Assembly (NCBI RefSeq): GCF_005543295.1
Contig: NZ_SRSG01000015.1
Coordinates: forward strand, 62,001-126,000
Direction: 5' to 3'
Length of the DNA stretch: 64,000 bases
From: Halalkalirubrum salinum
GTDB lineage: Archaea > Halobacteriota > Halobacteria > Halobacteriales > Haloferacaceae
A program made the position numbers and the translations under genes. Shown piece after piece: positions 7,587 through 27,978 of this stretch (position 1 is the first letter of the stretch; every line of letters starts with the position of its first letter). The notes below the pieces were generated by a model. The model made no database searches. It had not been told where the DNA came from and worked only from the letters and a program-made list of their open reading frames with translations.

Positions 7587-9523
7587 TGTTGTGGCACCTC
7601 TGCGGATTGGTTGTCGGTGAGTTCAGCCAGCCCGGTCACTGCGTCGCCGAACGCGCTGAGTTCGTCAAGGCCGATGGGTTCGTCCTGCCGGAGCGGCGCG
7701 AGCATCATCGGCGTCTCGAAGCGGTCCTGGATCTCGCCGAGATACTGCTGCTGTTGGGCCCGGCGGTTGGCGAAGAAGGCGTTGTCGCCGTACTCCTCGG
7801 GTAGCAGGTAGTTGGCGACGACGAAGGCGGTCTCGATGCCGACCTGGTCCTTCAGGTCCTCGGCCGCCCGATGGGCCTCCATCATCGGCGTGTACTCAGG
7901 GTACATGACGAAGGCGAACGAGCTTTTGTCGGGATTTTGCATCGTCTCGATCACCTTGTCGTACTGGTCGCCCTTGGCGGGAGCCGCACCCTTCGTCAGC
8001 GAGCCGAGATCCATAAAGCCCTTCCAGTCCGAGGGGAGCTCCAGGAGTCGGAGCGTGTGACCGGTCGGCGCGGTATCGAAGACGACGTAGTCGTAGCCAT
8101 CCTCATCGAAGTAGCCCACGAACTTTTCGAGGGCGGCCATCTCTTCGGCACACGGCGATTCGAGTTCTTCCTCAACGTTGGCGATGGCCGCGTCGACGTC
8201 GATCTCGGTGTCGTCTTTGTCCTCGTACATCTCGGTGACGTGAGTGAGGACCTGCTCGCGGTACTCTTCGAGGGCTTTCTCTTGGTCGATGCGGGCTGCA
8301 TCGAGATTTGCTTGGCTCACCGAGGTCGGCTCGTGGCCGACGGGTTCGCCGAAGATGTCTTCGAGGTGGGCTGCCGGGTCAGTCGTGACCACAAGCGTCT
8401 CGTAGCCCGCCTCGGCGAGTTTGGTCGCCGAGGTCGCGGCGATGGTACTCTTGCCGACGCCGCCCTTCCCAGTGAAAAAGAGATAGCGTGTCTCGCCGTC
8501 GACCGGCTGGAGTTTCTCGGCGACCGCGTCGGGATCGGTCAGCGAGTCGAAGTCGACCGCCTCGTCAGTGTCGACGTTGGTTGCCGACCCCACGTCGACA
8601 GTGGCCTCGTTGCCGTCGTAGAGGACACCGCCCACGTCAGCCAGCAGATCGAGACCGGCGATCTCGCCGGGCTGCAGCGGGTAGGTCGCCATCGCGTTGG
8701 CACCGAACTCGCGTTCGGCGCGTTCGATGACTGCCTGTTCGTCCTCTCGTTTTCCCTCGAAGAAGGGGTCCTCACAGACCGACTCGGGCAGATAGCCGTT
8801 GATAATCAGCAGTTGGGACTCGATCCCCAACTCGCCGAGATCCGATGCACTGCGGTTGATTTCGTCGATCGAGGAGTCCTCGGGTTTGCCAACGAAGGCA
8901 AACGAGGTCTTCTCGCTGTCCTGGAGCGTGTCGATGGCGCGCTCGTAGTCCTTCTTTCGTTCCTCCATCGAAGCGGCGGGGCCGATACAGGTCGAACCAC
9001 CTTTTTCGAGTTCGGCCTTCCAGTCGGATGGCAGTTCCATCAGCCGGATGGTGTGGCCCGTCGGCGCAGTGTCGAAGACGACCACGTCATACTCCGGCGA
9101 GTCCATGAAGTCGACGAAGTTGTCGAACGCGGCGATCTCTTCGACACAGGGGCTGTTGAGCTGTTCTTCGACGGCGCTGATCTGCTCGTCGTCGAGCAGT
9201 TCGCGCATTGGCTCGATGGTTTCTTGGCGGTACTCGGCGGCGGCCTGATCCGGATCGATCTCGATGGCCGAGAGGTTCTCGATATTCTCGATTGCGGTTA
9301 CGTCGTGACCGATCTCTTGGCCGAAGATATCCGAGAGGTTCGGCGCGGGGTCGGTCGTGACCAGCAGCGTGTTATAATCGTTGTTGGCGAGCCACGTCGC
9401 CGTTGCACAGCTGACGGTACTCTTGCCGACGCCGCCTTTCCCGCTGAAGAAGACGAACTCGGTGTCGTCGCCGCTCGGTTCTACAATGTCTCGTGCGTCA
9501 GTCGTTGGTTGCGTTGTTGCCAT
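7583..9523 (-). CDS. arsA: ArsA arsenite-translocating ATPase, double-length
   Basis: A 646-residue soluble ATPase with two homologous halves. Each has a deviant Walker A GKGGVGKST (about residues 29-37 and 350-358), a switch DTAPTGHT and the LPSDWK motif. Cysteines expected at the allosteric arsenite site are visible as CVEEIA (first half), STCIGPAA and CAEEMA (second half). Two-half ArsA proteins energise ArsB-type arsenite efflux; the homologous Get3 chaperones are normally single-half. It lies 3' of arsD with no gap and 5' of the Cys-tailed YlbF-like gene. No arsB or acr3 gene is in this window, so the membrane partner must be elsewhere or another protein. Confidence 0.93.
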   Translation of the reverse strand: MATTQPTTDARDIVEPSGDDTEFVFFSGKGGVGKSTVSCATATWLANNDYNTLLVTTDPAPNLSDIFGQEIGHDVTAIENIENLSAIEIDPDQAAAEYRQETIEPMRELLDDEQISAVEEQLNSPCVEEIAAFDNFVDFMDSPEYDVVVFDTAPTGHTIRLMELPSDWKAELEKGGSTCIGPAASMEERKKDYERAIDTLQDSEKTSFAFVGKPEDSSIDEINRSASDLGELGIESQLLIINGYLPESVCEDPFFEGKREDEQAVIERAEREFGANAMATYPLQPGEIAGLDLLADVGGVLYDGNEATVDVGSATNVDTDEAVDFDSLTDPDAVAEKLQPVDGETRYLFFTGKGGVGKSTIAATSATKLAEAGYETLVVTTDPAAHLEDIFGEPVGHEPTSVSQANLDAARIDQEKALEEYREQVLTHVTEMYEDKDDTEIDVDAAIANVEEELESPCAEEMAALEKFVGYFDEDGYDYVVFDTAPTGHTLRLLELPSDWKGFMDLGSLTKGAAPAKGDQYDKVIETMQNPDKSSFAFVMYPEYTPMMEAHRAAEDLKDQVGIETAFVVANYLLPEEYGDNAFFANRRAQQQQYLGEIQDRFETPMMLAPLRQDEPIGLDELSAFGDAVTGLAELTDNQSAEVPQQ

Positions 9524-13373: not shown

Positions 13374-15131
13374 CTATTCATAACGGTCAGGACTGATTTC
13401 GAGGAACGTTTTTGTTTCTTGAATTGACTTCCTAACCCTATGTGCGAGTTTCATTCGACCACGTTGAATTTTCGTCTCGGCAAATCTCCTATCACAGCCT
13501 GTTAATTCTGGGAGACTTTCTGCTACCCTTAGATACGGTAGTTGTCGGAAAGGACGACGAGGCTCGTGCTCATGCTCAGCTGTTTCCATATAGAGTCCGG
13601 GATTGAGGAGATTCCCAAGTGTCACCTGCAAGTGTTCAATATCTGCGATTGCTGCAGGAGGCGTATCTTCGCTGTACTCGTTAACTTCTGCGCGTACACG
13701 TTCAAGTAATTCCTCGAGTTTATCGAGATCATCATGGATGTCATCGAACAATACGAGGTCATCGGCGTTCGACTCAATGTTCACGAGCGTGTTCCGTATA
13801 TCTTGTACAGTCGCGGTGTAATCATGTGGGAGAACGACAGATTCGCATATCCGTGTCGCAAGCGAAACATACAGCTTCGTTTCCTCTACTAATACGTCGA
13901 TATCCACTTTGTCACGAGTGTCCTCAGGCGTATGCCACCACCATCCGCCGCCTACGGGGCCACCCGCTTCCGTTTGGGGGGTTAGTCGGGCTCCAGAGAG
14001 AAGCGAACTCAGCCCAGTCCCCCAGAACGATTGATCAGAGTTTCGTGCAGGTCTACCAGTGCTCCGTAAATAGCTCTCGTCTGATTTTCGAATCGGTATG
14101 TTTGTGGCGGTTTCCATAGCGTGGATGTGTTCATCCTCCAGTTCTGCCATGTGCTGGTACCACAAACCATCAGCTCCTTTCAACCCCGGCAGGTCGATAT
14201 GCAGATACGCGACACCGTTTTTCCGCAAATCGAGCCAGTTGGTATCCGCATACCACGCGCTTCCAGCGTACCGGCCAGTCGAATGACCGGGCCAAAACCC
14301 GAATTTTAGTCCTCTGCGGGGCGGTTCGTTGCGCTCGGCGAAGATGCGAGCGATTTCGATGGTTGTGGCCATCGCAGTCGCGTTGTCAGTGATGCCCTCA
14401 AACCACGAATCGACGTGATTCCCGATGAGAAAATAGCGGTCACTCTTAACGCCATCAATCGTTCCGACCGGACACGGCAGGTTCGTGAGTTCCGTCGTGA
14501 CTTCTGTTTTGAGGGTTGCTTCGACCGACCCGTGTTCCAGGCGGCCTGCTAACCATTCGCCGTCCGGATGGTTGATTTCGACCACTGGAATGTCTGGAAT
14601 CTCCTTTTTTGTGTCAGTACTTGGCGTCCCCCAGACGGGTGTCACGATCCCCTGATATCGGTGTTCGTTGGGAGACTGGCATATGAGGCCGCTTACACCT
14701 GCACGTTCGGCGTATCGAACAATATATGGCTTCGGCATTTCTTGAACGAAGGCAATCTTTCCTTCGAGATATCGAGACTCAGCGACAGACTGATCGAATG
14801 ATTCAACACGAACCACATCTGCGTGCGTTCCGGCAACGGAAGTACTCGCGCTGAATGATACCGTAATCGCGTCGAGTTCGCGCTTCGTTGGTGAGGTAAC
14901 GACCAATTTACCGGATTCGGGCACACTGATGTAGCCTTCGAATTCGTGCAACTCGGCCGTTACCCCGTATTTGTTCAGTACATCTACGATATACTCGCTC
15001 GCTTTCCACTCGTCGGCACTTCCAGAGACGCGAGTAAGACCCGAGAAGGCGTCAAGATGGCGCTCCATCTCTGTTGGATCGATCCGATCAAAAAGTGCAT
15101 TCTCCGTTGAACGGTCGACAGATTTTAACAT
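13374..15131 (-). CDS. M28-like metallopeptidase with altered active site (paralogue 1)
   Basis: A 585-residue soluble protein without signal peptide. Layout: N-terminal cap, a protease-associated-like insert (about 70-215), an M28 zinc-peptidase core (about 230-410) and a helical C-terminal region similar in position to the dimerisation domain of glutamate carboxypeptidase II. Core ligands are visible: GNHVDSW (His239, Asp241), GITDNATAM (Asp249), HIDLPG (Asp313) and WWWHTPEDT (His400). Where M28 enzymes carry the catalytic Glu-Glu pair it has WPGHSTGRYAGS (280-291), so both glutamates are absent. Three paralogues in this window share the change. It may be an unusual hydrolase, a lyase-like enzyme or a non-catalytic binder. 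It is divergent from nothing nearby: the IclR gene upstream runs the same way. Confidence 0.85.
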   Translation of the reverse strand: MLKSVDRSTENALFDRIDPTEMERHLDAFSGLTRVSGSADEWKASEYIVDVLNKYGVTAELHEFEGYISVPESGKLVVTSPTKRELDAITVSFSASTSVAGTHADVVRVESFDQSVAESRYLEGKIAFVQEMPKPYIVRYAERAGVSGLICQSPNEHRYQGIVTPVWGTPSTDTKKEIPDIPVVEINHPDGEWLAGRLEHGSVEATLKTEVTTELTNLPCPVGTIDGVKSDRYFLIGNHVDSWFEGITDNATAMATTIEIARIFAERNEPPRRGLKFGFWPGHSTGRYAGSAWYADTNWLDLRKNGVAYLHIDLPGLKGADGLWYQHMAELEDEHIHAMETATNIPIRKSDESYLRSTGRPARNSDQSFWGTGLSSLLSGARLTPQTEAGGPVGGGWWWHTPEDTRDKVDIDVLVEETKLYVSLATRICESVVLPHDYTATVQDIRNTLVNIESNADDLVLFDDIHDDLDKLEELLERVRAEVNEYSEDTPPAAIADIEHLQVTLGNLLNPGLYMETAEHEHEPRRPFRQLPYLRVAESLPELTGCDRRFAETKIQRGRMKLAHRVRKSIQETKTFLEISPDRYE

Positions 15132-15357: not shown

Positions 15358-16128
15358 CTACAGTTCGAACTCGATTTTCAACTCGAATTCGTTCGCTTTA
15401 CCGCGTAGAAGGTTTGGAATCTGTTCATGAAGTCGCTCTCCGTTCATTCGGTACGTCGGGCCGGATACACTGAACGCGCCGAAAACATTATTATCTGGAG
15501 CCAAGATTGGTACGCCGACAGTTCGTAGTCCGTCCATTCCCTCCTCTTTATTGAAAGCGTATCCTCGTTCTCGAATTTTTTCGAGCTCCTGATACAGTTC
15601 CTCCCTGTTGGTAATCGTATTTTGTGTTTGAGCAGGAAGTCCGATGGTGTCAAGAATCGACTGAATCCGGTCGGGTGGCAAGTGAGCTAAAATTGCCTTT
15701 CCAGCACCCGTTGAGTGCAAATATATCCGCTTCCCGATGCTCGTGTTAGTATGCACAGCGTTTTGACCGATCTGTCGATGGACGAACACTCCTAAACCAT
15801 ACTCTTCGGTAATGAACTGCGATCGCTCGTTCGTCTCTTCTGCTAACTGTTTCACAATCGGCTTTGCCATCCGATAGGCCTTCTTTTGTTCGCGCGTGTG
15901 TTCACCAAGGCGAAGAAATTTGAAACCGATTTCGTACTTGCTACCTTCTTTCACGATGTACTCCATCTCTTCGAGGGTAGATATATGGCTGTGAACAGTA
16001 CTCTTTGCCATGTCAAGGTGGTTTGCGAGGTCGGTTATGCCTGCACCGTCCAGTTCCCGTAGTGCCTCTATCACTTCGAATGATGTCTTTGTGGCGTTTA
16101 CCGTTCGAGATGAGTTTTGTGAAGGCAT
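15358..16128 (-). CDS. IclR-family transcriptional regulator
   Basis: A 256-residue regulator. The N-terminal winged helix covers about residues 8-70 (SFEVIEALRELDGAGITDLA, then MAKSTVHSHISTLEEMEYIV), and the C-terminal effector domain shows LHSTGAGKAILAHL, RERGYAFNKEEGMDGLRTVGVPI and FGAFSVSGP. The ATG at 16128 is preferred because an A+T-rich TATA-like stretch (16151-16160) lies at leaderless distance; an upstream in-frame ATG would include non-conserved residues. It is divergent from the LLM gene at 16382 and upstream of the M28 paralogue, so it probably controls this set. The effector is unknown. Confidence 0.9.
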   Translation of the reverse strand: MPSQNSSRTVNATKTSFEVIEALRELDGAGITDLANHLDMAKSTVHSHISTLEEMEYIVKEGSKYEIGFKFLRLGEHTREQKKAYRMAKPIVKQLAEETNERSQFITEEYGLGVFVHRQIGQNAVHTNTSIGKRIYLHSTGAGKAILAHLPPDRIQSILDTIGLPAQTQNTITNREELYQELEKIRERGYAFNKEEGMDGLRTVGVPILAPDNNVFGAFSVSGPTYRMNGERLHEQIPNLLRGKANEFELKIEFEL

Positions 16129-16161
16129 GATATAGCCTATTGTTCTCATACCACATATATT

Positions 16162-16178
16162 GTTCGCTTGGTGTGAAC
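16162..16178. promoter_or_regulatory. Imperfect palindrome, candidate IclR site at its own promoter
   Basis: GTTCGCTTGGTGTGAAC is an interrupted palindrome with outer arms GTTC/GAAC, next to the TATA-like stretch of the IclR gene. It shares the half-site GTGTGAAC with the perfect palindrome at 16291. Binding here would block the IclR promoter (autoregulation). Inferred from symmetry and placement. Confidence 0.4.
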
Positions 16179-16290
16179 ACATTGTAGGGTGCAATATCTT
16201 GAATGTACGTGTCTTTCACGGCTGTAGATGCGGATTCTACCAATTAGCTATTTTTCAGCACTAACGTGATTGATAATCATTACTAATGTA

Positions 16291-16381: not shown

Positions 16382-17422
16382 ATGCAATTTGGATACGGAT
16401 TACTGACAGGCCAACGTATCCCTGGTTCGGACAAATCGTACGAGATGACGTACGAGGAGATGATTAAGTTGGCATCCATGGCCGAAGATTACGGATTCGA
16501 CACGATACATACCTCGGAGCACCATTTCTTTGATGACGGGTATTCGCCATCAGTCTTGCCGCTTTCGGCCGCGCTTGCGAGAGAAACCGAGCACGTTGGA
16601 ATCGCAACGACAATAGCGCTTGCTCCGTTATACGATCCGATTCGTCTCGCGGAAGATGCGGCCACGATTGATATACTCTCAGGCGGACGCTTCATATTAG
16701 GACTTGCAAACGGGTACATGCAAGCTGAATTCGACGCGTTTGACATCCCTCGATCCGAGCGCGCTCGTCGCGTTGTGGAGACCATCGAAATCTGTCGGCG
16801 CGCATGGGTAGATGAGAAACTCTCATTCGACGGGGATATCTTCACCTACGACAATCTCCGAGTCGAACCAAAACCAGTACAAGACGGAGGGCCAGATATC
16901 TATCTGGGAGGTACGTCCAAGCCTGCGATTCGACGCTCAGCACGACGATGTGACGGCCACATTGGTATCGTTTATTATGACAGTGAGATGCAGTACAAAT
17001 CCTCCTTCGAACAGTTCGCCGACAACGTCGAACTCCTCAATGAAGAGAGGACTGTCGCCGCGGACGATTTCACCATCTCGGTGATGCAGTACACGCACGT
17101 CGATTCAAGTTCGAACACCGCTTGGGAAACGCTCGCTCCGTCTTTAATCTATTCGCGTCGTAAGTATGCCGAACACGCAGACGGACGCGACGCATCACGA
17201 TGGGACCGCGAATCGATGACTGACGAACGAATGGCGCAGTTGCGCGCAGGTGCGATGGTAGGCAACCCTGAAGAAGTGATAGAACGGCTTCGAGCGTACG
17301 AAGAGGCTGTTCCTGGGGAGCTCCACTTCTTAGCGCGGATGTGGCATCCTGGGCTTCCGTTTGAAGAACAGGTCGCCGCGCTCAAATTGTTCGGCGAGGA
17401 AGTAATTCCTGCACTATCATAG
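16382..17422 (+). CDS. LLM-class (luciferase-like) flavin-dependent oxidoreductase
   Basis: A 346-residue TIM-barrel oxidoreductase of the luciferase/F420-dependent superfamily. It shows the N-terminal strand MQFGYGLLTGQ, EDYGFDTIHTSEHHF, the GIATTIALAPLYDPIRLAEDAATID stretch in parts, LSGGRFILGLANGY, and IYLGGTSKPAIRRSARR in the cofactor region. Haloarchaea make F420, so F420H2 or FMN are both possible. It is the first gene of a rightward run with the enolase-superfamily and SDR genes and is divergent from IclR. It probably oxygenates or reduces an intermediate of the imported substrate; the reaction is unknown. Confidence 0.87.
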   Translation: MQFGYGLLTGQRIPGSDKSYEMTYEEMIKLASMAEDYGFDTIHTSEHHFFDDGYSPSVLPLSAALARETEHVGIATTIALAPLYDPIRLAEDAATIDILSGGRFILGLANGYMQAEFDAFDIPRSERARRVVETIEICRRAWVDEKLSFDGDIFTYDNLRVEPKPVQDGGPDIYLGGTSKPAIRRSARRCDGHIGIVYYDSEMQYKSSFEQFADNVELLNEERTVAADDFTISVMQYTHVDSSSNTAWETLAPSLIYSRRKYAEHADGRDASRWDRESMTDERMAQLRAGAMVGNPEEVIERLRAYEEAVPGELHFLARMWHPGLPFEEQVAALKLFGEEVIPALS

Positions 17423-17507
17423 CATCGAAGAGGACGTATTCGGTTCATCTCCTAATTGAGGGCACCGAAGAGATTATATCGGAGTATGACAACCGGTAAC
17501 AGGATCG

Positions 17508-18590
17508 ATGGGAATTTCACAAATAGATGCAGTCGGAATGAAAATACCGTTCTCGGAGAATTTTCCACTGAATTACGGTACAGAACAGGCAACACACCAT
17601 ATTTTTGTCCGTGTGAAGACAGACACTGGAGGAGTCGGATACGGGGAAGGGACGGCGCTGCCATGGTTCACCGGAGACGTCGCGCCCGGTTTAGAAGAAA
17701 TCGCACGCGATTGGATTGCGCCGTCAATAATGAATGACTCTCTTGACGATGCGTTCGTGCAACTCCGTCAGTTCCAGGATACGTTCCCCGGAGCGTACGG
17801 TGCGATGGCCGCCGTCGAAATGGCGTTACTAGATTTGAAGGCCAAACGATTCGATGTCCCGGTTCACGAGCTGCTTGGAGCGAAACTCCGAGATTCGATT
17901 CCTATTGTCTCTGTTTTGCCTGCACACGACACTGATACGACCGCGAGGAAAGCAACTGAGGAGGTAGAGAAAGGATATCGGCATCTTAAAATAAAAGCCA
18001 ATGGGAATACAAAAACCGATATAGAACGTATCGAAGCCGTTCTGGAGGTTCTTCCAGAACGGGGAACACTCCGAATCGATGCGAACACAGCCTGGAAGAC
18101 GTACCCGACAGCTGCGAAAGTACTGAGCGAAATTAACGAAGAGGAAAAAATAGAATACGTCGAACAGCCCGTCGCCGTGAACAGAGTTGACCACATGAGA
18201 CGATTGTGGGAAGAGTTTGGAATTCCAATTTATGCCGACGAATCTGTGAACGGCATTGCCGACGTGGAACGCTACGGTAATAACGCACAAATTTCTGGTT
18301 GTCACCTCAAACTAGCAAAATCCGGATCGTTGTTGACATTGGCGACGATGGCCGAGCGCGCAAAAAAATACGACATGACCGTTTCGGTAGTGAGTGCGTT
18401 CGGGACTTCCCTCGAAGCAACGGCGAATCTGCACTTGGCTAGCGTCGTTGAGAACCTTTCGCAAGGCGTCGAGATTTGTACGGATTTGCTTGCGGACTCG
18501 TATGGTTCGCCGGCACTGGAACAGGCTCCAAAACTGTCGGTTCCGACCAAGCCCGGGATTGGCGTCACTATTGACGACACAGTATTCTGA
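17508..18590 (+). CDS. Enolase-superfamily enzyme (mandelate racemase/muconate lactonizing group, dipeptide-epimerase-like)
   Basis: A 360-residue enzyme with the capping domain and (beta/alpha)7-beta barrel of the MLE subgroup. The acid-base KxK motif is seen in HLKIKANGNTKTD, metal ligands in RIDANTAW (Asp), EYVEQPV (Glu) and IYADESVNG (Asp/Glu), and the second lysine in CHLKLAKSGSL. The lysine pair and the LKLAKSG strand are like those of L-Ala-D/L-Glu and other dipeptide epimerases and o-succinylbenzoate synthase. The nearby peptidases and peptide-type ABC importer favour a dipeptide or N-acyl amino acid substrate. A related, broken copy lies at 52067. Confidence 0.87.
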   Translation: MGISQIDAVGMKIPFSENFPLNYGTEQATHHIFVRVKTDTGGVGYGEGTALPWFTGDVAPGLEEIARDWIAPSIMNDSLDDAFVQLRQFQDTFPGAYGAMAAVEMALLDLKAKRFDVPVHELLGAKLRDSIPIVSVLPAHDTDTTARKATEEVEKGYRHLKIKANGNTKTDIERIEAVLEVLPERGTLRIDANTAWKTYPTAAKVLSEINEEEKIEYVEQPVAVNRVDHMRRLWEEFGIPIYADESVNGIADVERYGNNAQISGCHLKLAKSGSLLTLATMAERAKKYDMTVSVVSAFGTSLEATANLHLASVVENLSQGVEICTDLLADSYGSPALEQAPKLSVPTKPGIGVTIDDTVF

Positions 18591-18975
18591 TTTCGGGAGC
18601 TTTGTCGACGATGCCGGTAGACCTATGTCTCGATTAGTATAGATGTCTGATAAAATCGAATACCATGTCATTCTGAACGGTGTCGTTTTAGAACGAGAGT
18701 ACCGACAAACACAAGGCTGACGGCCACCCGAAATCGATCTCGGATCCGTCAAAGCTCGGCTTCTAGGTCGATCGAGGGGAACTGCCGAAATCCGTAGCCT
18801 ATGACTCTAACAACTGAACTCTGTTCACGGTTCAAATCCTCAAGACATTCGAACGGCTCAGCATTTGTGGCAAGAGAGTACCACTGTTGTATGACTTATT
18901 TGGAGAGTATTTGGCTTCGACTCGCCCGTTTCCGGGGCAACGACTATAACCTCTGATTGGTTTGTTGCTACCACA
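18591..18975. other. Intergenic region, 385 bases, no gene seen
   Basis: Separates the enolase-superfamily gene from the SDR gene. No convincing reading frame, RNA gene or repeat was seen. The last 100 bases should hold the SDR promoter. Confidence 0.4.
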
Positions 18976-19713
18976 ATGGTCGAAGAACCCAGTATTGCAG
19001 TAATTACCGGCGGTGCCAGCGGGATCGGTCGAGCCACAGTCACTCGGTTTCTCGAAGACGACGTATACGATCTCGTCGCGTGTCTCGACATCGCCGAAGA
19101 CGTCGAAAAGCGGTTCGAAGATGAGTCTATCCGGGCATTCCGGTGTGACGTGACCGACCACGACCAAGTCAGCGAAACTATCTCCGAACTCGAAGGTGAG
19201 GGACGAATCGATGCGGTGGTAAACAACGCGGGCTTTTCGAAGTACAGTTGGATCGGCGACCTGTCTCCCGATGAGTGGCGCGAAATAATTGACATCAATC
19301 TCACGAGTCAATACAACCTGGCTCATACCGCCGCACCGGCGATGTACGAACGAGAACACGGCTATCTCCTCAATGTATCGAGCGGCGCGGGAAAGCGCGG
19401 AAGCGCCAGCGGTGGCGTCCATTACTCGGCCGCAAAAGCAGGCGTGTTCGGACTCACAAAGGGTTTGGCGAAACAGCTGTCACCCTACGTCCGAGTCAAC
19501 TGCGTCATTCCGGGCTTGGTCGACACCCCTCTTGCAACCGATTCAAATCTCTGGACGGAAACAGAATTAGAAGAACAGGCGGAACGTATTCCGCTTAAAC
19601 GGCTAGCACAGCCAGACGACGTCGCCCGGGTAATTCACTTCCTCTGTGACGAGGGCGCGTCCTATATGACAGGAGAGCTTGTGACGGTTGACGGTGGTTC
19701 GTCGCTTAGTTAA
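18976..19713 (+). CDS. Short-chain dehydrogenase/reductase (SDR)
   Basis: A 245-residue classical SDR that oxidises or reduces an alcohol/carbonyl with NAD(P). It has the nucleotide loop TGGASGIGRA (about residues 11-20), the Asp of CLDIAED favouring NAD, NNAGFS, the catalytic Ser in NVSSGAGKRGSASGG, and YSAAKAG with catalytic Tyr and Lys, then PGLVDTPL and the C-terminal GELVTVDGGSSLS. It is close in sequence to the SDR interrupted by an IS630 element at 61664, including the unusual SSGAG(K/Q)RGS(A/M)SGGVHYSA block. The substrate is unknown. Confidence 0.9.
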   Translation: MVEEPSIAVITGGASGIGRATVTRFLEDDVYDLVACLDIAEDVEKRFEDESIRAFRCDVTDHDQVSETISELEGEGRIDAVVNNAGFSKYSWIGDLSPDEWREIIDINLTSQYNLAHTAAPAMYEREHGYLLNVSSGAGKRGSASGGVHYSAAKAGVFGLTKGLAKQLSPYVRVNCVIPGLVDTPLATDSNLWTETELEEQAERIPLKRLAQPDDVARVIHFLCDEGASYMTGELVTVDGGSSLS

Positions 19714-20348: not shown

Positions 20349-22094
20349 ATGTACATAGGAGATCCAGAGTCCGGGGAGTCCCCGGATACATCTAGTACCT
20401 CGAGCGATCGGCGAAAATTCATGAAGGGAATTGGATTAGCTGGTGTGACCGGCATCCTCAGTTCAATTGCTGGATGTTCTTCCGATGATGGCAGTTCAGA
20501 AGAGCGCGGGGAACAAGTTCCCACCCTAGAAGTTATAGGATACCCTGAATCAAACCGCTCGAGTTTCGACACCCTCACCGAGATTGTGGACGAGGTCGAA
20601 AATCTCGGCTTCGACCTCGAATACAACCCAGTTAGCCGTGATCGACATCTCGACCTAGTGTTCTACGAGCATGACTATGAGATTAGCAGTCTCGGCTACA
20701 CTGGCCGACCGGAGCGACTAGACCCAAACGCGCTTCCGTGGGGGAACTATCACTCCTCCGAAATCGAGGGAGGTGCGTACAACTGGACCGGAACCGACTA
20801 TCCGGAAATTGATGAGGCTCTGGAGGCCCAACGCGAATTGTTGGATCCCGATGAGCGCCAGCCCCTCGTCCACGAGATGCAAGAAGTCATTATGAGTATC
20901 CCCGGGGGTGAGATGCCGATCGAACATCCAGACCTCGTCAACGTATACAACTCGGAAAAATTCGACGGCTTCGTCGCCGTGCCCGGGCTGGGTATGAATA
21001 ATTACGACACTTGGCTCAACGTCGAGGCGCTCGGCGACGATCGCGAAATGACCTGTGGGTATCCCCTCGACGTACCTCACATTACGCCGTTGCAAGCGAA
21101 CGAAACGAACCAAATTGTCAACCGTATCTGCCACGATACCCTGACCGTTGTCGGTGATGATGGTCTGCCGACCGAGTGGTTGGCAACAGATTGGGAGATA
21201 TCGGCAGATAACACCCGAATAGACTTCACAATTCGTGAGGGCCACGAATTCAACGACGGCGAACCCTGCACGGCGGAGGATGTCGTATTCACGTACGAAT
21301 ACATTATGGAGTGGGAAGTTCCATTCCTCATCTCCAGCCTTGGCGCGCTAGATGAGGTTTACGCTGACGGAAACATTGTCACCTTCGAACTATCCGAACC
21401 AGACGCGCCAATCTTCAATGATGCCTTCTCTCGCATACAAATCCTTCCCGAACACATCTGGTCGCAAATTCCCGACGCTGATGACGACATCGATGCGCCG
21501 TTCGAATGGTCACCCACGGAAAGTGACCTCACAGATAACGGACTCATCGGTAGCGGTCCATACGAATTCGACGAATGGCGTCGTGGCTCCGGCGTTCGCT
21601 TGACCGTCAGAGACAGCCACCCAGTCGGAACCCCGGATATCGACTCGATATTTATCCAGACTATTGAGAGTCCATCTGCGCTGACAACCGCACTTCGGAA
21701 CGAAGAGATCGACTTTGTCATCGACACCGACGCTGACTCGCAGGTACTGGACGATCTCGCATCCGAGGAAGACCACTTGGAATTTGTCGCAACCGAGTCT
21801 GTCGGCTATGACGAGTGGGCTATGAATACACGTGTCGAGCCGCTTGGTCGAGAATCGGTTCGCCAGGCAATGTCTGCGATGATTCCAAAGGAACGTATCG
21901 CCCAAGAGGTATGGCGTGGCTATGCGCAACCCGCGATCTCGCCAATCAGTCCAGCATTGGAATTCTGGCACAACCCCGACGTAGAGAAGTGGCACGAATA
22001 CTCGATGGAAGACGCTGTCGAATGGCTCGAAGAGGATGGATTTGTCGTCGAAGAAGACGGTATCTACTACCCAGTTGACGGCTTCGAGGACTGA
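20349..22094 (+). CDS. Peptide-type ABC substrate-binding protein with swapped lobe order
   Basis: A 581-residue exported lipoprotein of the SBP family 5 (DppA/OppA) group. Signal: DRRKFMKGIG (Tat), hydrophobic stretch, lipobox IAGC (about residue 43). The order of parts is odd. Residues about 60-225 look like the C-terminal lobe of DppA-type proteins: GYTGRPERLDPN, YPEIDEALEAQ, LDPDERQPLVHEMQEVI, then a VYNSEKFDGF-type strand. Residues about 235-580 look like the N-terminal lobe: ITPLQANETNQIVNRICHDTL, then WEISADNTRIDFTIREGHEF, then DVVFTYEYI, ending in AVEWLEEDGFVVEEDGIYYP, where normal proteins continue into the C-lobe. This is the pattern of a circular permutation. It begins the importer operon. 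Confidence 0.85.
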   Translation: MYIGDPESGESPDTSSTSSDRRKFMKGIGLAGVTGILSSIAGCSSDDGSSEERGEQVPTLEVIGYPESNRSSFDTLTEIVDEVENLGFDLEYNPVSRDRHLDLVFYEHDYEISSLGYTGRPERLDPNALPWGNYHSSEIEGGAYNWTGTDYPEIDEALEAQRELLDPDERQPLVHEMQEVIMSIPGGEMPIEHPDLVNVYNSEKFDGFVAVPGLGMNNYDTWLNVEALGDDREMTCGYPLDVPHITPLQANETNQIVNRICHDTLTVVGDDGLPTEWLATDWEISADNTRIDFTIREGHEFNDGEPCTAEDVVFTYEYIMEWEVPFLISSLGALDEVYADGNIVTFELSEPDAPIFNDAFSRIQILPEHIWSQIPDADDDIDAPFEWSPTESDLTDNGLIGSGPYEFDEWRRGSGVRLTVRDSHPVGTPDIDSIFIQTIESPSALTTALRNEEIDFVIDTDADSQVLDDLASEEDHLEFVATESVGYDEWAMNTRVEPLGRESVRQAMSAMIPKERIAQEVWRGYAQPAISPISPALEFWHNPDVEKWHEYSMEDAVEWLEEDGFVVEEDGIYYPVDGFED

Positions 22095-22119: not shown

Positions 22120-23094
22120 ATGAACACAAAAAAGTACATATTAAAACGCATTGTCAGTACAGTAGCAACGTTCTTTGCAATAGCTACGATCATCTTCTTT
22201 TTGTTCCGGATGGTTGGTGACCCGGCATCACTGTTTATGTCACCTGGAATGGGTGGTGAGCAATTAGAACGAATTCGATCGAGTTTCGGTCTCAATGACC
22301 CACTTTATGTTCAGTACTACCGATACATGGTAAACATTGTCACACTTGACTTCGGCGTGAGTTTCTACTATCAATCTTCGACAGGTCCGATTGTGATTGA
22401 GCGGATGATAAACAGCCTGTTTCTCACTATGCCGGCCATCCTACTCGCGTATGTATTCGGCTCTATCGGAGGCGTCGTCATGGCTTGGAGACGTGGAGAA
22501 CCACTCGAGCGTGTCGGCTTGCTCGGCGCAATTATCTTCCGATCGACGCCCCGCTTTTGGCTAGGCATCATCCTGCTGTTTGTGTTCGCAGGAATACTCG
22601 GTTGGTTCCCCAGTTTCGGGATGCTTTCTCAGGACATCGAGTTCCGAGGACATCTAGCCCTCCTCCTCGAACCAGACTTCTATCACCATATCATCCTTCC
22701 AATCGCCTCAATGACCTTCTACCTGATGGGCCTCCCATTGCTTTTGATGCGTACGAGCATGCTGGAAGTCATAAACGAGGACTTCGTTGATGTCTGTATA
22801 GCAAAAGGACTCACACAGCGGGAAGTTATGTTCAAACACGTCGCGCGGAACGCGTTACTTCCCGTAGTCACCGCATTCGCGGTCGGCATTGCATTCTCGT
22901 TCGGCGGGAATGTTCTCGTTGAAACCGTATTCTCGTACCCCGGAGTCGGGCGACTCATGGTTGACTCCGTGTTCCGGAGCGACTACCCTGTTGCGCAGAT
23001 GTCGTTCCTAATGATGGCTGCGGTGGTATTGACGATGAACTTTCTCGCAGACCTCACGTACTTTTATCTTGATCCGAGAGTGAAAGCCGAATGA
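22120..23094 (+). CDS. Peptide-type ABC permease (DppB-like)
   Basis: A 324-residue membrane protein with six hydrophobic helices. It has the DppB/OppB hallmarks: an N-terminal helix with a long periplasmic-type loop (FLFRMVGDPASL, then FGLNDPLYVQYY), and the ATPase-contact loop EVINEDFVDVCIAKGLTQREVMFKHVARNAL in part at about residues 217-247. The ATG at 22120 is preferred over an in-frame ATG at 22036, which would lie within the binding-protein gene. It is 25 bases behind that gene. It forms the translocation channel with the next permease. Confidence 0.9.
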   Translation: MNTKKYILKRIVSTVATFFAIATIIFFLFRMVGDPASLFMSPGMGGEQLERIRSSFGLNDPLYVQYYRYMVNIVTLDFGVSFYYQSSTGPIVIERMINSLFLTMPAILLAYVFGSIGGVVMAWRRGEPLERVGLLGAIIFRSTPRFWLGIILLFVFAGILGWFPSFGMLSQDIEFRGHLALLLEPDFYHHIILPIASMTFYLMGLPLLLMRTSMLEVINEDFVDVCIAKGLTQREVMFKHVARNALLPVVTAFAVGIAFSFGGNVLVETVFSYPGVGRLMVDSVFRSDYPVAQMSFLMMAAVVLTMNFLADLTYFYLDPRVKAE

Positions 23095-23113
23095 CAATGA
23101 AGCAGCGTTCACA

Positions 23114-24076
23114 ATGGAGAGTACGATGATCGGAACTAAAACTATCAATGGATATATCAAGCGGCTTCGTTCACTCGATCGAGAGAGTTTACAACAAGAC
23201 ATAGAACTTCGAGTAGAGAAAGCCCGTGATGTGTTCGAAATCATCGTTGCCAATGATCTCGCGAAGATCGGAATGGTTCTGCTCGCGATATTTCTCATTG
23301 TCGGGTTATTTGCACCGGTTATTGCACCTCACGAACCAAACGAGCGGCAGACGAACGATCAAGGTGATTGGCTCCGCGGCGAAGACCCATCAATCACGTA
23401 TCCGATGGGGACTACCGACAACGCACACGACATCTTCTCCCAAGTCGTGTTCGGAACGCGGGTCGCGTTGATGGCGGGTATGCTCACCGCACTGATGGTT
23501 GGTGGGCTCGGAACCTTTGCTGGTATCATTGCAGGCTACTCCGGTGGTTACACTGAGACTGCAATTATGCGAATCGTTGACCTCGCGTACGGAGTTCCGT
23601 TCCTCCCGTTTGCGATCGTCTTGGTGATCGTACTCGGAGCGAACCTCTGGAATATCGTCCTCGCAATCTCGCTGATACTCTGGCGTGAGACGGCTCGTGT
23701 CGTTCGGTCGGAGGTGCTCTCGATACGCGAACTTGCGGACATCGAATCCGCAAAAGCGAGCGGCGCCAGCGATACGCGTATCATTCTCTACCATATCTTC
23801 CCGAAAGTGCTTCCCACAGCTGTTCTTTATTCCGTATTCGCAATCGGATGGGCAATCCTTGCTGAGGCGGGTCTATCGTTCTTAGGATTCAGTGACCACG
23901 AGATGGTCAGCTGGGGCTCAATGCTTCAAGCTGCCTACAACGGACAGGCACTTGACCAGAGCATGTGGTGGTGGATTTTCCCGCCGGGAATCTGTATTAG
24001 CCTGCTCGTGATCTCAGTGTATCTTATAAGTCAAGGTATCGAAGAAGTTGTTAACCCTCACCTGAGGGAGGTGTAA
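23114..24076 (+). CDS. Peptide-type ABC permease (DppC-like)
   Basis: A 320-residue membrane protein of the DppC/OppC type. It has a cytoplasmic N-terminal stretch of about 50 residues, then GMVLLAIFLIVGLFAPVIAPHEP, typical of this subunit, the post-helix motif YPMGTTDNAHDIFSQVVFGTR in part, and the EAA loop ELADIESAKASGASDTRIILYHIFPKVLP in part. An ATG at 23126 is an alternative start. It ends two bases before the first ATPase. It pairs with the DppB-like subunit. Confidence 0.9.
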   Translation: MESTMIGTKTINGYIKRLRSLDRESLQQDIELRVEKARDVFEIIVANDLAKIGMVLLAIFLIVGLFAPVIAPHEPNERQTNDQGDWLRGEDPSITYPMGTTDNAHDIFSQVVFGTRVALMAGMLTALMVGGLGTFAGIIAGYSGGYTETAIMRIVDLAYGVPFLPFAIVLVIVLGANLWNIVLAISLILWRETARVVRSEVLSIRELADIESAKASGASDTRIILYHIFPKVLPTAVLYSVFAIGWAILAEAGLSFLGFSDHEMVSWGSMLQAAYNGQALDQSMWWWIFPPGICISLLVISVYLISQGIEEVVNPHLREV

Positions 24077-24077
24077 A

Positions 24078-25094
24078 ATGTCGCTACTCGAAGTAAAGAA
24101 TCTAGATATCGAATACCAGACTAAGAAAGGTAGTATCAAAGCTGCAAACGACGTTTCGTTCTCAATCGATCAAAATGAGAAGTTTGGACTGGTTGGAGAG
24201 AGCGGGTGCGGGAAATCGACAATAGCCAAAAGTCTACTTCGATTACTCCCCGACAACGGTGCTGTGACAAACGGCTCGATTATGTTCGACGGGACAGACC
24301 TCGTCTCCACAGACGAAAAGACGCTCCGGGATATCCGATGGGATGAGATCTCGTTCATCACACAGAGTGCAATGAACGCACTCGATCCGGTGTACACAAT
24401 CGGTAATCAAATCGTCGAGGCGATTCAGACCCACGAGAATGTCTCTAAAAAGAATGCTCGGAATCGTGCGGGAGATTTAGTCGAACTGGTGGGTCTGGAG
24501 CGTGAAAGAATTGATTCGTACCCGCATCAACTGTCGGGTGGAATGCGCCAGCGTGCGATGATCGCAATGGCATTGGCGCTAAATCCCAGGCTCATAATCG
24601 CAGACGAGCCGACGACGGCGTTGGATGTTATTACCCAGGACCACATCCTTGAGGAAATTAACACGCTGACCGACACCATCAACAGCTCCCTGTTCATCAT
24701 CACCCACGACATCAGCGTCGTCGCTGAGACGTGTGATAAGGTCGGTGTGATGTATGGCGGTGAGCTCGTCGAAGTCGGACCCATAGAAGAGGTCTTTGTC
24801 AACCCGCAACATCCCTACACACTGGGACTGCTGAATGCGTTCCCGACGATAGAGGGGGGCGAGGACGAACTAATCACGATGCCGGGACAGCCGCCAGATT
24901 TGCAAGACCCACCTCAAAACTGTAGTTTCTACGAGCGGTGTCCCTACCGGGAGGAGAGATGCGCTCATGCAGACCCTGAGCTTACTCGACGGAGCGATTC
25001 TCAGTACGCTGCGTGCTTCGTGAGTGAGGAACGAGATATCGGAGCGGAGTACGAATCCGTCGTCGACAAGGAGGAAGTATGGTTGAAACTATAA
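24078..25094 (+). CDS. Peptide-type ABC ATP-binding protein (DppD-like)
   Basis: A 338-residue ATPase. Walker A GESGCGKST, Q-loop FITQSAMNALDPVY, signature LSGGMRQRAMIAMAL, Walker B LIIADEPTTALD and switch His IITHD are all present. The C-terminal part carries the oligopeptide-transporter extension with four cysteines (CSFYERCPYREERCAH and a later Cys), which in DppD/OppD can hold an iron-sulfur cluster. It overlaps the second ATPase gene by 16 bases. It energises the importer. Confidence 0.92.
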   Translation: MSLLEVKNLDIEYQTKKGSIKAANDVSFSIDQNEKFGLVGESGCGKSTIAKSLLRLLPDNGAVTNGSIMFDGTDLVSTDEKTLRDIRWDEISFITQSAMNALDPVYTIGNQIVEAIQTHENVSKKNARNRAGDLVELVGLERERIDSYPHQLSGGMRQRAMIAMALALNPRLIIADEPTTALDVITQDHILEEINTLTDTINSSLFIITHDISVVAETCDKVGVMYGGELVEVGPIEEVFVNPQHPYTLGLLNAFPTIEGGEDELITMPGQPPDLQDPPQNCSFYERCPYREERCAHADPELTRRSDSQYAACFVSEERDIGAEYESVVDKEEVWLKL

Positions 25095-26155
25095 TGCAAG
25101 TCCACGGACTGAAGAAGCACTATCCGGTCAATACCGGATTACTTGCTCAACTTCGTGGCAATCAGCGCTATGTCCACGCAGTCGATGGGGTAGATTTTGA
25201 CATCCGCAAGGGAGAAATTCTCGGATTAGCAGGCGAATCTGGGTGCGGTAAAACAACGACCGGGAAGTGTCTGACTCGACTCACTGATCTGACCGATGGA
25301 GAGGTACTATTCGGTCCGGATAATACCGATATCTCCAAACTCGAAAACGACGAACTCAAACAATATCGGCGTGAAGCGCAGCTCATCTTTCAGGATCCAT
25401 TCGAATCTATCAACGATCGATTTACGGTGAAAAAGTGGGTCGGCGAGCCGCTCAAAATCCACCACATGGTTCCTGCAGACGGTATCGAAGGACCAGTTTT
25501 GGAGGCGCTCGAAAACAGCGGCTTGGAACCTGCCGAAGAGTATCTCAACCGCTATCCACACGAATTGAGCGGTGGGCAGCGCCAGCGGGTTGCCATCGCT
25601 CGTGCATTAGTGTTGAATCCGTCGTTCATTGTCGCAGACGAGCCGACGTCGATGCTAGACGTTTCGGTTCGAGCGGGAGTGCTCCGAGTGATTCGAAATC
25701 TGGTCAAAGAAAACAACGTGACTGTGTTGTATATCTCTCATGACCTCTCGCTCCTTCGGTACGTTTGTGACCGAATCGGGATCATGTATCAGGGGGAACT
25801 CGCGGAAATCGGCGACGCGGACATAGTGCTTAACGATCCAAAGCACCCGTACACACAGGCGCTCGTCTCCGCAGTACCTCGGTCCGACCCGAGACAGAAG
25901 CGCGAGCGGATCCGGATACCCGACGAAGTTATCGACAGGTACGGTGGAATCGAGGGGTGCTCGTTTAAAAATCGCTGTCCGTACCGCTTCGAAAAGTGCG
26001 AAGAGAAGCCACGATTGCTTCAGACCGAGGAGGGAACGGGGCCGGATCGACACGTATCGTGTCACCTACACGACGACACCATCGACACGACGATTGACGA
26101 TATCGACCCCGACTTCGAGCGCAAAAAAGAGTTCACCGACCACGACATTCTATAA
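25079..26155 (+). CDS. Peptide-type ABC ATP-binding protein (DppF-like)
   Basis: A 358-residue ATPase, partner of the preceding one. It has GESGCGKTTTGK (Walker A), FQDPFESINDRF (Q-loop, typical of DppF), LSGGQRQRVAIARAL (signature), FIVADEPTSMLD (Walker B) and YISHDLSLLRYV. The C-terminal cysteine motif CSFKNRCPYRFEKC is present. The start overlaps the previous gene by 16 bases; a second ATG five codons later is possible. It is followed two bases after its stop by a small membrane protein gene, so the operon has at least six genes. Confidence 0.92.
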   Translation: MVETIMQVHGLKKHYPVNTGLLAQLRGNQRYVHAVDGVDFDIRKGEILGLAGESGCGKTTTGKCLTRLTDLTDGEVLFGPDNTDISKLENDELKQYRREAQLIFQDPFESINDRFTVKKWVGEPLKIHHMVPADGIEGPVLEALENSGLEPAEEYLNRYPHELSGGQRQRVAIARALVLNPSFIVADEPTSMLDVSVRAGVLRVIRNLVKENNVTVLYISHDLSLLRYVCDRIGIMYQGELAEIGDADIVLNDPKHPYTQALVSAVPRSDPRQKRERIRIPDEVIDRYGGIEGCSFKNRCPYRFEKCEEKPRLLQTEEGTGPDRHVSCHLHDDTIDTTIDDIDPDFERKKEFTDHDIL

Positions 26156-26832: not shown

Positions 26833-27978
26833 ATGACAACACCGACAAAATTCGATACTATCGTGATCGGCGGCGGAATTATCGGTGCCAGTTGTGCGTG
26901 GCACCTTCTAGAAGCTGGAGTTGACAATGTACTTCTCCTCGAAAAAGATACACCCGCGAGCAAAGCGAGCGGTCGGGCGGCAGGCCATTTGAGTACCTAC
27001 ACGTCACGAAAGTTCGAGGAATCGATCCGACGCTACTGTATCGAATTTCACGAATCGATAGCAGCGAGACACGACAACGTATCGCTCCGCGAGGACGTTG
27101 ATCACGTACTTGCATACACGGAACGCGGGGTAGAGAAGCTTGAGGAGCTTTTGAAGCTAGACTCTGAAAAACTCACACTCGTGGATCGGTGCGAGCTTGC
27201 AAATCGAGAGCCAGTGTTCAATACCGAAGAGATTCTGGCAGCGTTATTGTACGAGGAGGCAGTACACACCGATCCGTATTCGCTCACGATGGCCGTACTT
27301 TCGGAAGCCAAAGAGTCTGGTGCGACACTTCGGACGGAAGAAGTAACCGATATCGAGTGTGGCGAGGATGAATTCACCGTCACTACCGAAGACGCCTCCT
27401 ACGAGACATCGACTGTCGTGAATGCCGCAGGTGCGTGGAGCGGAGATCTCGCGTCGATGGTTGGTATATCGTTGCCGGTTAAGCCTCGAACAAGCCAAAT
27501 CGTGGTATTAGAGCCCAGAGATTCTATTAACATCCCAATGTTCCACTGTCCCGACATTGGGTTGTACGGTCGCCAAGAACTAAATGGGGATGTGCTCGTT
27601 GGCGGCGGAACTAGTACCGTAATCCCAGATCCAGACAACTTTTCGACGAATGCTCGCGAGGAATTTCTCCAGTACGTCTCCGAACAGGTGTGGAAAATTG
27701 CCGACGTTCTAGACGATACCCGCCTCGTGAACCACTGGGCAGGTCGATGTACGGCGACACCCGACCGCCGGCCCATTATTGGTCCGACAGACGTTTCGGG
27801 ATTTTATCTATGTACGGGATTCAACGGAGGCGGTGTTGCCCGATCGCCGTTCGCTGGGAAGTTGATTGCTGACTACGTGGCCGAGCGCTCTCTTTCGTTC
27901 ACAGCGGAACCGTATCATCCGAATCGGTTTAACGGTAGAGAGCGATTCGATGTGAAAAGCGCGAGTACCGACTGGTGA
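26833..27978 (+). CDS. FAD-dependent oxidoreductase of the DAO family
   Basis: A 381-residue flavoprotein of the glycine/D-amino acid oxidase, sarcosine oxidase beta group. The N-terminal dinucleotide fold reads VIGGGIIGASCAWHLLEAG with a following Glu (LLEKD). VNAAGAWSGDLA and the C-terminal FAD motif GFYLCTGFNGGGVARSPFAGKLIADY fit the family, and PDRRPIIGPT precedes it. It probably oxidises an amine or secondary amino acid released from the imported compound. It is the next rightward gene after the importer, 168 bases away, and before the MFS carrier. Confidence 0.88.
   Translation: MTTPTKFDTIVIGGGIIGASCAWHLLEAGVDNVLLLEKDTPASKASGRAAGHLSTYTSRKFEESIRRYCIEFHESIAARHDNVSLREDVDHVLAYTERGVEKLEELLKLDSEKLTLVDRCELANREPVFNTEEILAALLYEEAVHTDPYSLTMAVLSEAKESGATLRTEEVTDIECGEDEFTVTTEDASYETSTVVNAAGAWSGDLASMVGISLPVKPRTSQIVVLEPRDSINIPMFHCPDIGLYGRQELNGDVLVGGGTSTVIPDPDNFSTNAREEFLQYVSEQVWKIADVLDDTRLVNHWAGRCTATPDRRPIIGPTDVSGFYLCTGFNGGGVARSPFAGKLIADYVAERSLSFTAEPYHPNRFNGRERFDVKSASTDW

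Follow-up and report, generated by a model that had tools for sequence, protein, structure and literature searches.

The gene at 20349–22094 (forward strand) of the window, a 64,000-nucleotide stretch of a 3.4-Mb assembly, encodes a substrate-binding protein in which the two parts of a normal family-5 protein stand in swapped order. The open reading frame is intact, and its 581-residue product, assigned by Pfam, pairwise alignment and hhalign and carrying a predicted lipoprotein signal, is confirmed as a circular permutant of the family-5 (SBP_bac_5, "cluster C") binding proteins: both parts are present, their order is swapped, the old ends are joined and new ends lie elsewhere. The initial annotation had proposed a circular permutation, and this proposal is upheld by profile comparisons in both directions, more than 100 homologs, trees of each half and a confident full-length model. 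Taken as a whole, the evidence is very probably best explained by a working lipid-anchored receptor of the Dpp/Opp type that was permuted once and has been kept as a receptor-permease lineage.

The two parts of a family-5 protein occur in swapped order

The Pfam profile SBP_bac_5 (PF00496) matches the protein with 180.7 bits (cut-off 32.4) in two stretches. The better stretch aligns residues 275–570 with positions 3–283 of the 368-position profile, so the profile breaks off at the end of the protein. In the genome of the window, the match stops at profile position 287 in both permuted paralogs, and reaches 340–367 in the other full-length family members. Pairwise alignment with phmmer to a normal-order paralog of the same genome, L004, places residues 275–566 on L004 115–406 and residues 79–224 on L004 425–564.

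Profile-profile comparison by hhalign, in which alignments of each half were compared with 31 normal-order proteins, defines the two parts over their full lengths. Specifically, the first block (residues 57–229; 20517–21035, forward strand), also delimited by HMM mapping in homologs, corresponds to the end part of a normal family-5 protein (DppA 374–523; 99.8% probability, E = 2.9e-30), while the second block (residues 230–581; 21036–22091, forward strand), also recognized by Pfam, corresponds to the start part (DppA 28–380; 100% probability, E = 6.2e-74). Each half therefore matches the swapped part of its normal relatives, in the pairwise alignment to L004 as well as on DppA, and joining the end of the protein to its start gives the complete normal family-5 order, both as had been predicted. 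Consistent with this assignment, a profile built with 21 permuted relatives and searched against the PDB aligns its positions 230–554 with chain residues 23–348 of AppA (1xoc), and its positions 55–197 with chain residues 358–495. For the 60 chains listed in that search, it is the N-lobe part that gives the best stretch, and it lies in the early portion of the chain, where the normal order has it.

The motifs on which the proposal was built lie where they had been placed: YPEIDEALEAQ at residues 151–161, LDPDERQPLVHEMQ at residues 165–178, VYNSEKFDGF at residues 199–208 and AVEWLEEDGFVVEEDGIYYP at residues 556–575. Pairwise, HMM and hhalign comparisons all returned swapped parts, and none gave a match to the whole protein in the normal N-to-C order. 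Since the homology is clear despite the swapped order, the protein represents a permuted subfamily of SBP_bac_5 and not a standard member.

The permuted form is a distinct lineage of haloarchaea and several bacterial phyla

Scoring of part order by HMMs under one and the same rule identified 102 distinct homologs as permuted and 39 as normal-order, with none in between; two further gathered family proteins are a fragment or a spurious frame. The swapped order is thus not a product of chance. A scan of a genome collection yielded 80 loci, and the phyla represented besides haloarchaea are Pseudomonadota, Spirochaetota, Deinococcota, Chloroflexota, Bacillota and Actinomycetota. Labels are firmer for isolates (among them Martelella, Mesorhizobium and Halomonadaceae) than for the many bacterial records that come from metagenome bins. 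At strict cut-offs, the permuted form is present in 42 of 97 sampled Halobacteria, answering the suggestion that the same order be sought in other haloarchaea, and in 6 of 199 sampled Bacillota (seed genome included), 1 of 249 Pseudomonadota and 1 of 151 Chloroflexota (the seed genome only in both cases). The permuted lineage is thus found through the haloarchaea and sporadically in several bacterial phyla.

The genome of the window carries a second, divergent permuted paralog, L002 (L221:9366–11159, G000:C5), with no permease adjoining; the gene that follows it reads as a PAP2-like membrane protein. Several haloarchaeal matches (G092:C31:20794, G083:C4:332042, G051:C29:7153 and similar ones) are open frames of ~636–678 residues, which match the permuted profile from position 37–56 on and therefore possibly have long N-terminal extensions.

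Quick, unrooted trees without bootstraps, calculated after un-permuting the sequences, group the permuted proteins into one clade, with SH-aLRT values of 87 in the first tree and 99 in the final whole-protein tree, which has more relatives and leaves the long branches out, among them the divergent paralog L002. Trees of the separate halves likewise give one permuted clade each (SH-aLRT 95 for the N-lobe part and 97 for the C-terminal part). The DppB permeases encoded beside permuted receptors also form one clade (SH-aLRT 100), and the DppB adjoining the normal-order protein L153 is among its nearest relatives. The agreement of the receptor clade with the DppB clade indicates that receptor and permease travelled together. 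To judge from these phylogenies, the permutation apparently arose once.

The nearest normal-order relatives in the tree are L153, L192 and L199, all from Bacillota. Unlike the window protein, they combine normal order with a C-terminal membrane anchor, and L153 has a signal-like N-terminus without a lipobox. L153 was considered as an intermediate of the permutation and rejected, as its order is plainly normal, its anchor is C-terminal and none of its parts is duplicated. Nor did the gathered family proteins include a tandem-duplicate intermediate.

These trees bear on a different origin of the swapped order, in which the N-lobe of one family-5 gene acquired in front of it a C-terminal fragment of a different family-5 gene. 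An origin of this kind has been raised for the permuted part of treponemal Tp0684 (PMC4990184), and it would fit the lower conservation of the first block, whose top identity to another row of the alignment is 30% as against 42% for the second block. Such a chimera is nevertheless improbable, because the trees of both halves contain a single permuted clade and have L153 and L192 in common among the nearest normal-order proteins by path.

The permuted chain is predicted to form one compact family-5 fold

The AlphaFold2 model of the full-length protein, based on an alignment of 36 sequences, is one compact fold (pLDDT 86.5, pTM 0.83) that is confident across the seam between the two blocks. The matches listed by Foldseek are family-5 proteins throughout, mostly with ~360 aligned columns and query-normalised TM-scores of 0.3–0.5, values obtained for a predicted model and in line with what a sequential aligner should give on a permuted chain. 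When modelled by itself, the first block reaches a pLDDT of 67, and its matches, again to the family-5 class at a TM-score of ~0.3, carry little weight because the block alone folds poorly.

That low confidence, together with the failure of Pfam to recognize the first block by itself, could be read to mean that residues 57–229 are an extra front domain on a protein that has lost its normal C-terminal part and is truncated, perhaps non-functional. We rejected this reading, which is now highly improbable, on the strength of the hhalign mapping and the full-length model: residues 57–229 are homologous to the C-terminal part of DppA and are not an unrelated added domain, 102 homologs keep the block, and the full-length model is confident across it. 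We found no supporting points for an error of assembly or annotation, or for an isolated rearrangement, and rejected this reading as having a negligible chance, because the same order occurs in many independent archaeal and bacterial genomes and at a second locus of the same genome.

The new ends probably lie within the second lobe

The permuted protein is cut after approximately DppA residue 373, before the strand aligned with DppA FSIDLWAMP. At this boundary the window protein reads ..AVEWLEEDGFVVEEDGIYYP, whereas L153 reads ..ANQVLEEAGYMDLNGDGIREASDGTPLDFLL and DppA reads ..AKALLKEAGLEKGFSIDL, an alignment that places the new ends in the loop before the strand FSIDL. The new C-terminal end (residues 556–575; 22014–22073, forward strand), modelled as a helix and a small hairpin, is the point where normal family-5 proteins run on into the other block. 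The old C-terminus (..TWLNVEA) is connected to the old N-terminus (REMTCGY..) by a seam at 21009–21056 (forward strand), which hardly varies in length among the archaeal and bacterial homologs and has block means of pLDDT of 88–95 in the AlphaFold2 model.

Domain III of DppA, the second lobe, is presumably formed by mature residues 260–479. By these limits the cut falls inside the second lobe and not at the lobe boundary, so the description of the protein as having permuted lobes, right as to the swapped order, is slightly inexact, and the lipid anchor would leave from the second lobe instead of the first. The new N-terminus would thereby move the anchor to another side of the protein.

The N-terminus itself carries a Tat-type lipoprotein signal (20349–20477, forward strand), recognized by sequence. 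By inspection, the twin arginines are residues 21–22 (20409–20414), and the lipobox, ...IAGC, ends at Cys43. The twin arginines and a lipobox-like cysteine are invariant in the haloarchaeal homologs, and these features mark the protein as a predicted Tat-exported lipoprotein. A short acidic tether (residues 44–56; 20478–20516, forward strand) leads from the lipid anchor to the fold; in the AlphaFold2 model the pLDDT is below 50 through residue 47.

The permuted receptor heads a Dpp/Opp-type transporter operon

The binding-protein gene is followed on the same strand by genes for a cognate DppB-type permease (22120–23094; BPD_transp_1 and BPD_transp_1_N), a cognate DppC-type permease (23114–24076; BPD_transp_1 and OppC_N), a DppD-type ATPase (24078–25094) and a DppF-type ATPase (25079–26155), both ATPases with ABC_tran and oligo_HPY. 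The DppB gene starts ~25 bases past the stop of the binding protein, and there is an in-frame ATG upstream at 22036 too. Co-encoding with Dpp/Opp-type permeases and ATPases (22120–26155) is conserved in homologs, and in almost every complete locus the permuted gene stands at the head of its own permease-ATPase operon.

Pfam and locus comparison further identify an M28-family metallopeptidase (13374–15131, reverse strand) and an IclR-type regulator (15358–16194, reverse strand). Relatives of the former occur near permuted systems of Martelella, Mesorhizobium, Trueperaceae, Chloroflexi and Halolamina, and relatives of the latter near several bacterial permuted systems. The interval 16382–19713 encodes a luciferase-like monooxygenase, an enolase-superfamily enzyme and a short-chain dehydrogenase, a catabolic-looking set, and a putative oxidoreductase that reads as FAD-dependent lies beyond the transporter (26833–27978). 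The catabolic-looking neighbours of the transporter may hint at the fate of the solute. The GC content is ~0.51–0.52 at window positions 8000–32000, compared with 0.64 over the initial 8 kb and 0.60 in a separate 20-kb region of the genome; positions 8000–32000 are possibly an acquired segment.

In 30 bacterial permuted-receptor operons (L085:10661–12394, L048:10620–12323, L070:10702–12387 and 27 further loci), the DppC-type permease has 510–580 residues compared with the usual ~300. The added ~260–290 residues are inserted past the first membrane helix and look like a β-propeller, judging by weak, mostly sub-threshold Pfam matches of the YCF48/BNR type. Some of these loci adjoin normal-order operons with a short DppC. 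Many bacterial permuted operons (L065, L085, L093, L098, L106 and others) encode the two ATPases apparently fused into a single protein of ~700–800 residues. In the scoop region of DppB, permuted systems have only scattered clade-specific residues, and no obvious indel unique to them was seen.

DISCUSSION

The conserved operon and the intact predicted fold argue that the window protein most likely serves a Dpp/Opp-type importer as its receptor and works in the ordinary Venus-flytrap manner. In the proposed mechanism, the receptor would be the lipid-anchored binding protein of such an importer, with a permuted family-5 fold in which the near-constant seam would join the old C-terminus to the old N-terminus and new ends would have been created within a second-lobe loop. 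The permuted chain is predicted to close up as one ordinary two-lobed protein, which would capture its solute by lobe closure and pass it to the permeases whose genes follow immediately. A single permutation event would have taken place in an ancestor that had a permease lineage of its own, and the unit of receptor and permease now occurs through haloarchaea and, sporadically, in bacteria; duplication followed by trimming is our guess as to the route.

The solute may be a peptide or a peptide-like compound. The nearby M28 peptidase and IclR regulator weakly suggest a peptide or an amide-type solute. A ligand pair of DppA, Arg383 and Asp436, is reported in PMC12136057, whose numbering is used here. 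An acidic residue, Glu or Asp, occupies the Asp436 column in 27 of the 32 permuted proteins, while none of the 32 has a residue aligned with Arg383, as also holds for most normal-order ones, so the pair appears to be kept by half at best in the permuted proteins.

A further possibility, which we regard as rather unlikely, is that this is an ancient lineage with a re-threaded receptor, its termini and anchor on the second lobe, to which the permeases have adapted, in one bacterial branch through a propeller-like extracytoplasmic domain of DppC; docking or the movement of the lobes would then depart from that of standard Dpp/Opp systems.

DppA, OppA, AppA and NikA (family-5/cluster C, PF00496) are homologous to the window protein over both parts and share its type of permease and ATPase operon and its predicted fold; the window protein differs from them in the swapped order of its parts and the fusion of the old ends by a short seam. 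Among ABC binding proteins, a naturally occurring circular permutation has been described for Tp0684 (MglB-2) of Treponema pallidum ("Type Ic/cluster Bc"), where it moves three N-lobe strands and is shared by relatives, most of the proteins being tethered; Tp0684 was shown to bind ligand and to change conformation (PMC4990184). Tp0684 is, unlike the window protein, a glucose-binding protein of cluster B, a different fold class, and no family-5 member is involved. The glycine-betaine-binding and molybdate-binding proteins, which CPSARST identified as a permutation family (PMC2395249), are likewise binding proteins related by circular permutation, but they are distant families linked by structure, whereas the present case falls within a close family that has normal-order sisters. 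Our search of the open-access literature found no paper or solved structure of a permuted family-5 protein. Permuted ABC binding proteins are thus already known in another class.

Topology is the basis on which binding proteins are classified, and family 5 ranks among the largest groups. A permutant that occurs naturally, has close sisters in normal order and belongs to an intact transporter is a clear example of a permutation that was fixed a single time and then retained, and it permits a direct test of whether the position of the termini and of the lipid anchor matters for docking. Standard profiles call such proteins truncated because they are permuted, and the Pfam match that ends at about position 287 is a signature by which many genomes could be re-annotated.
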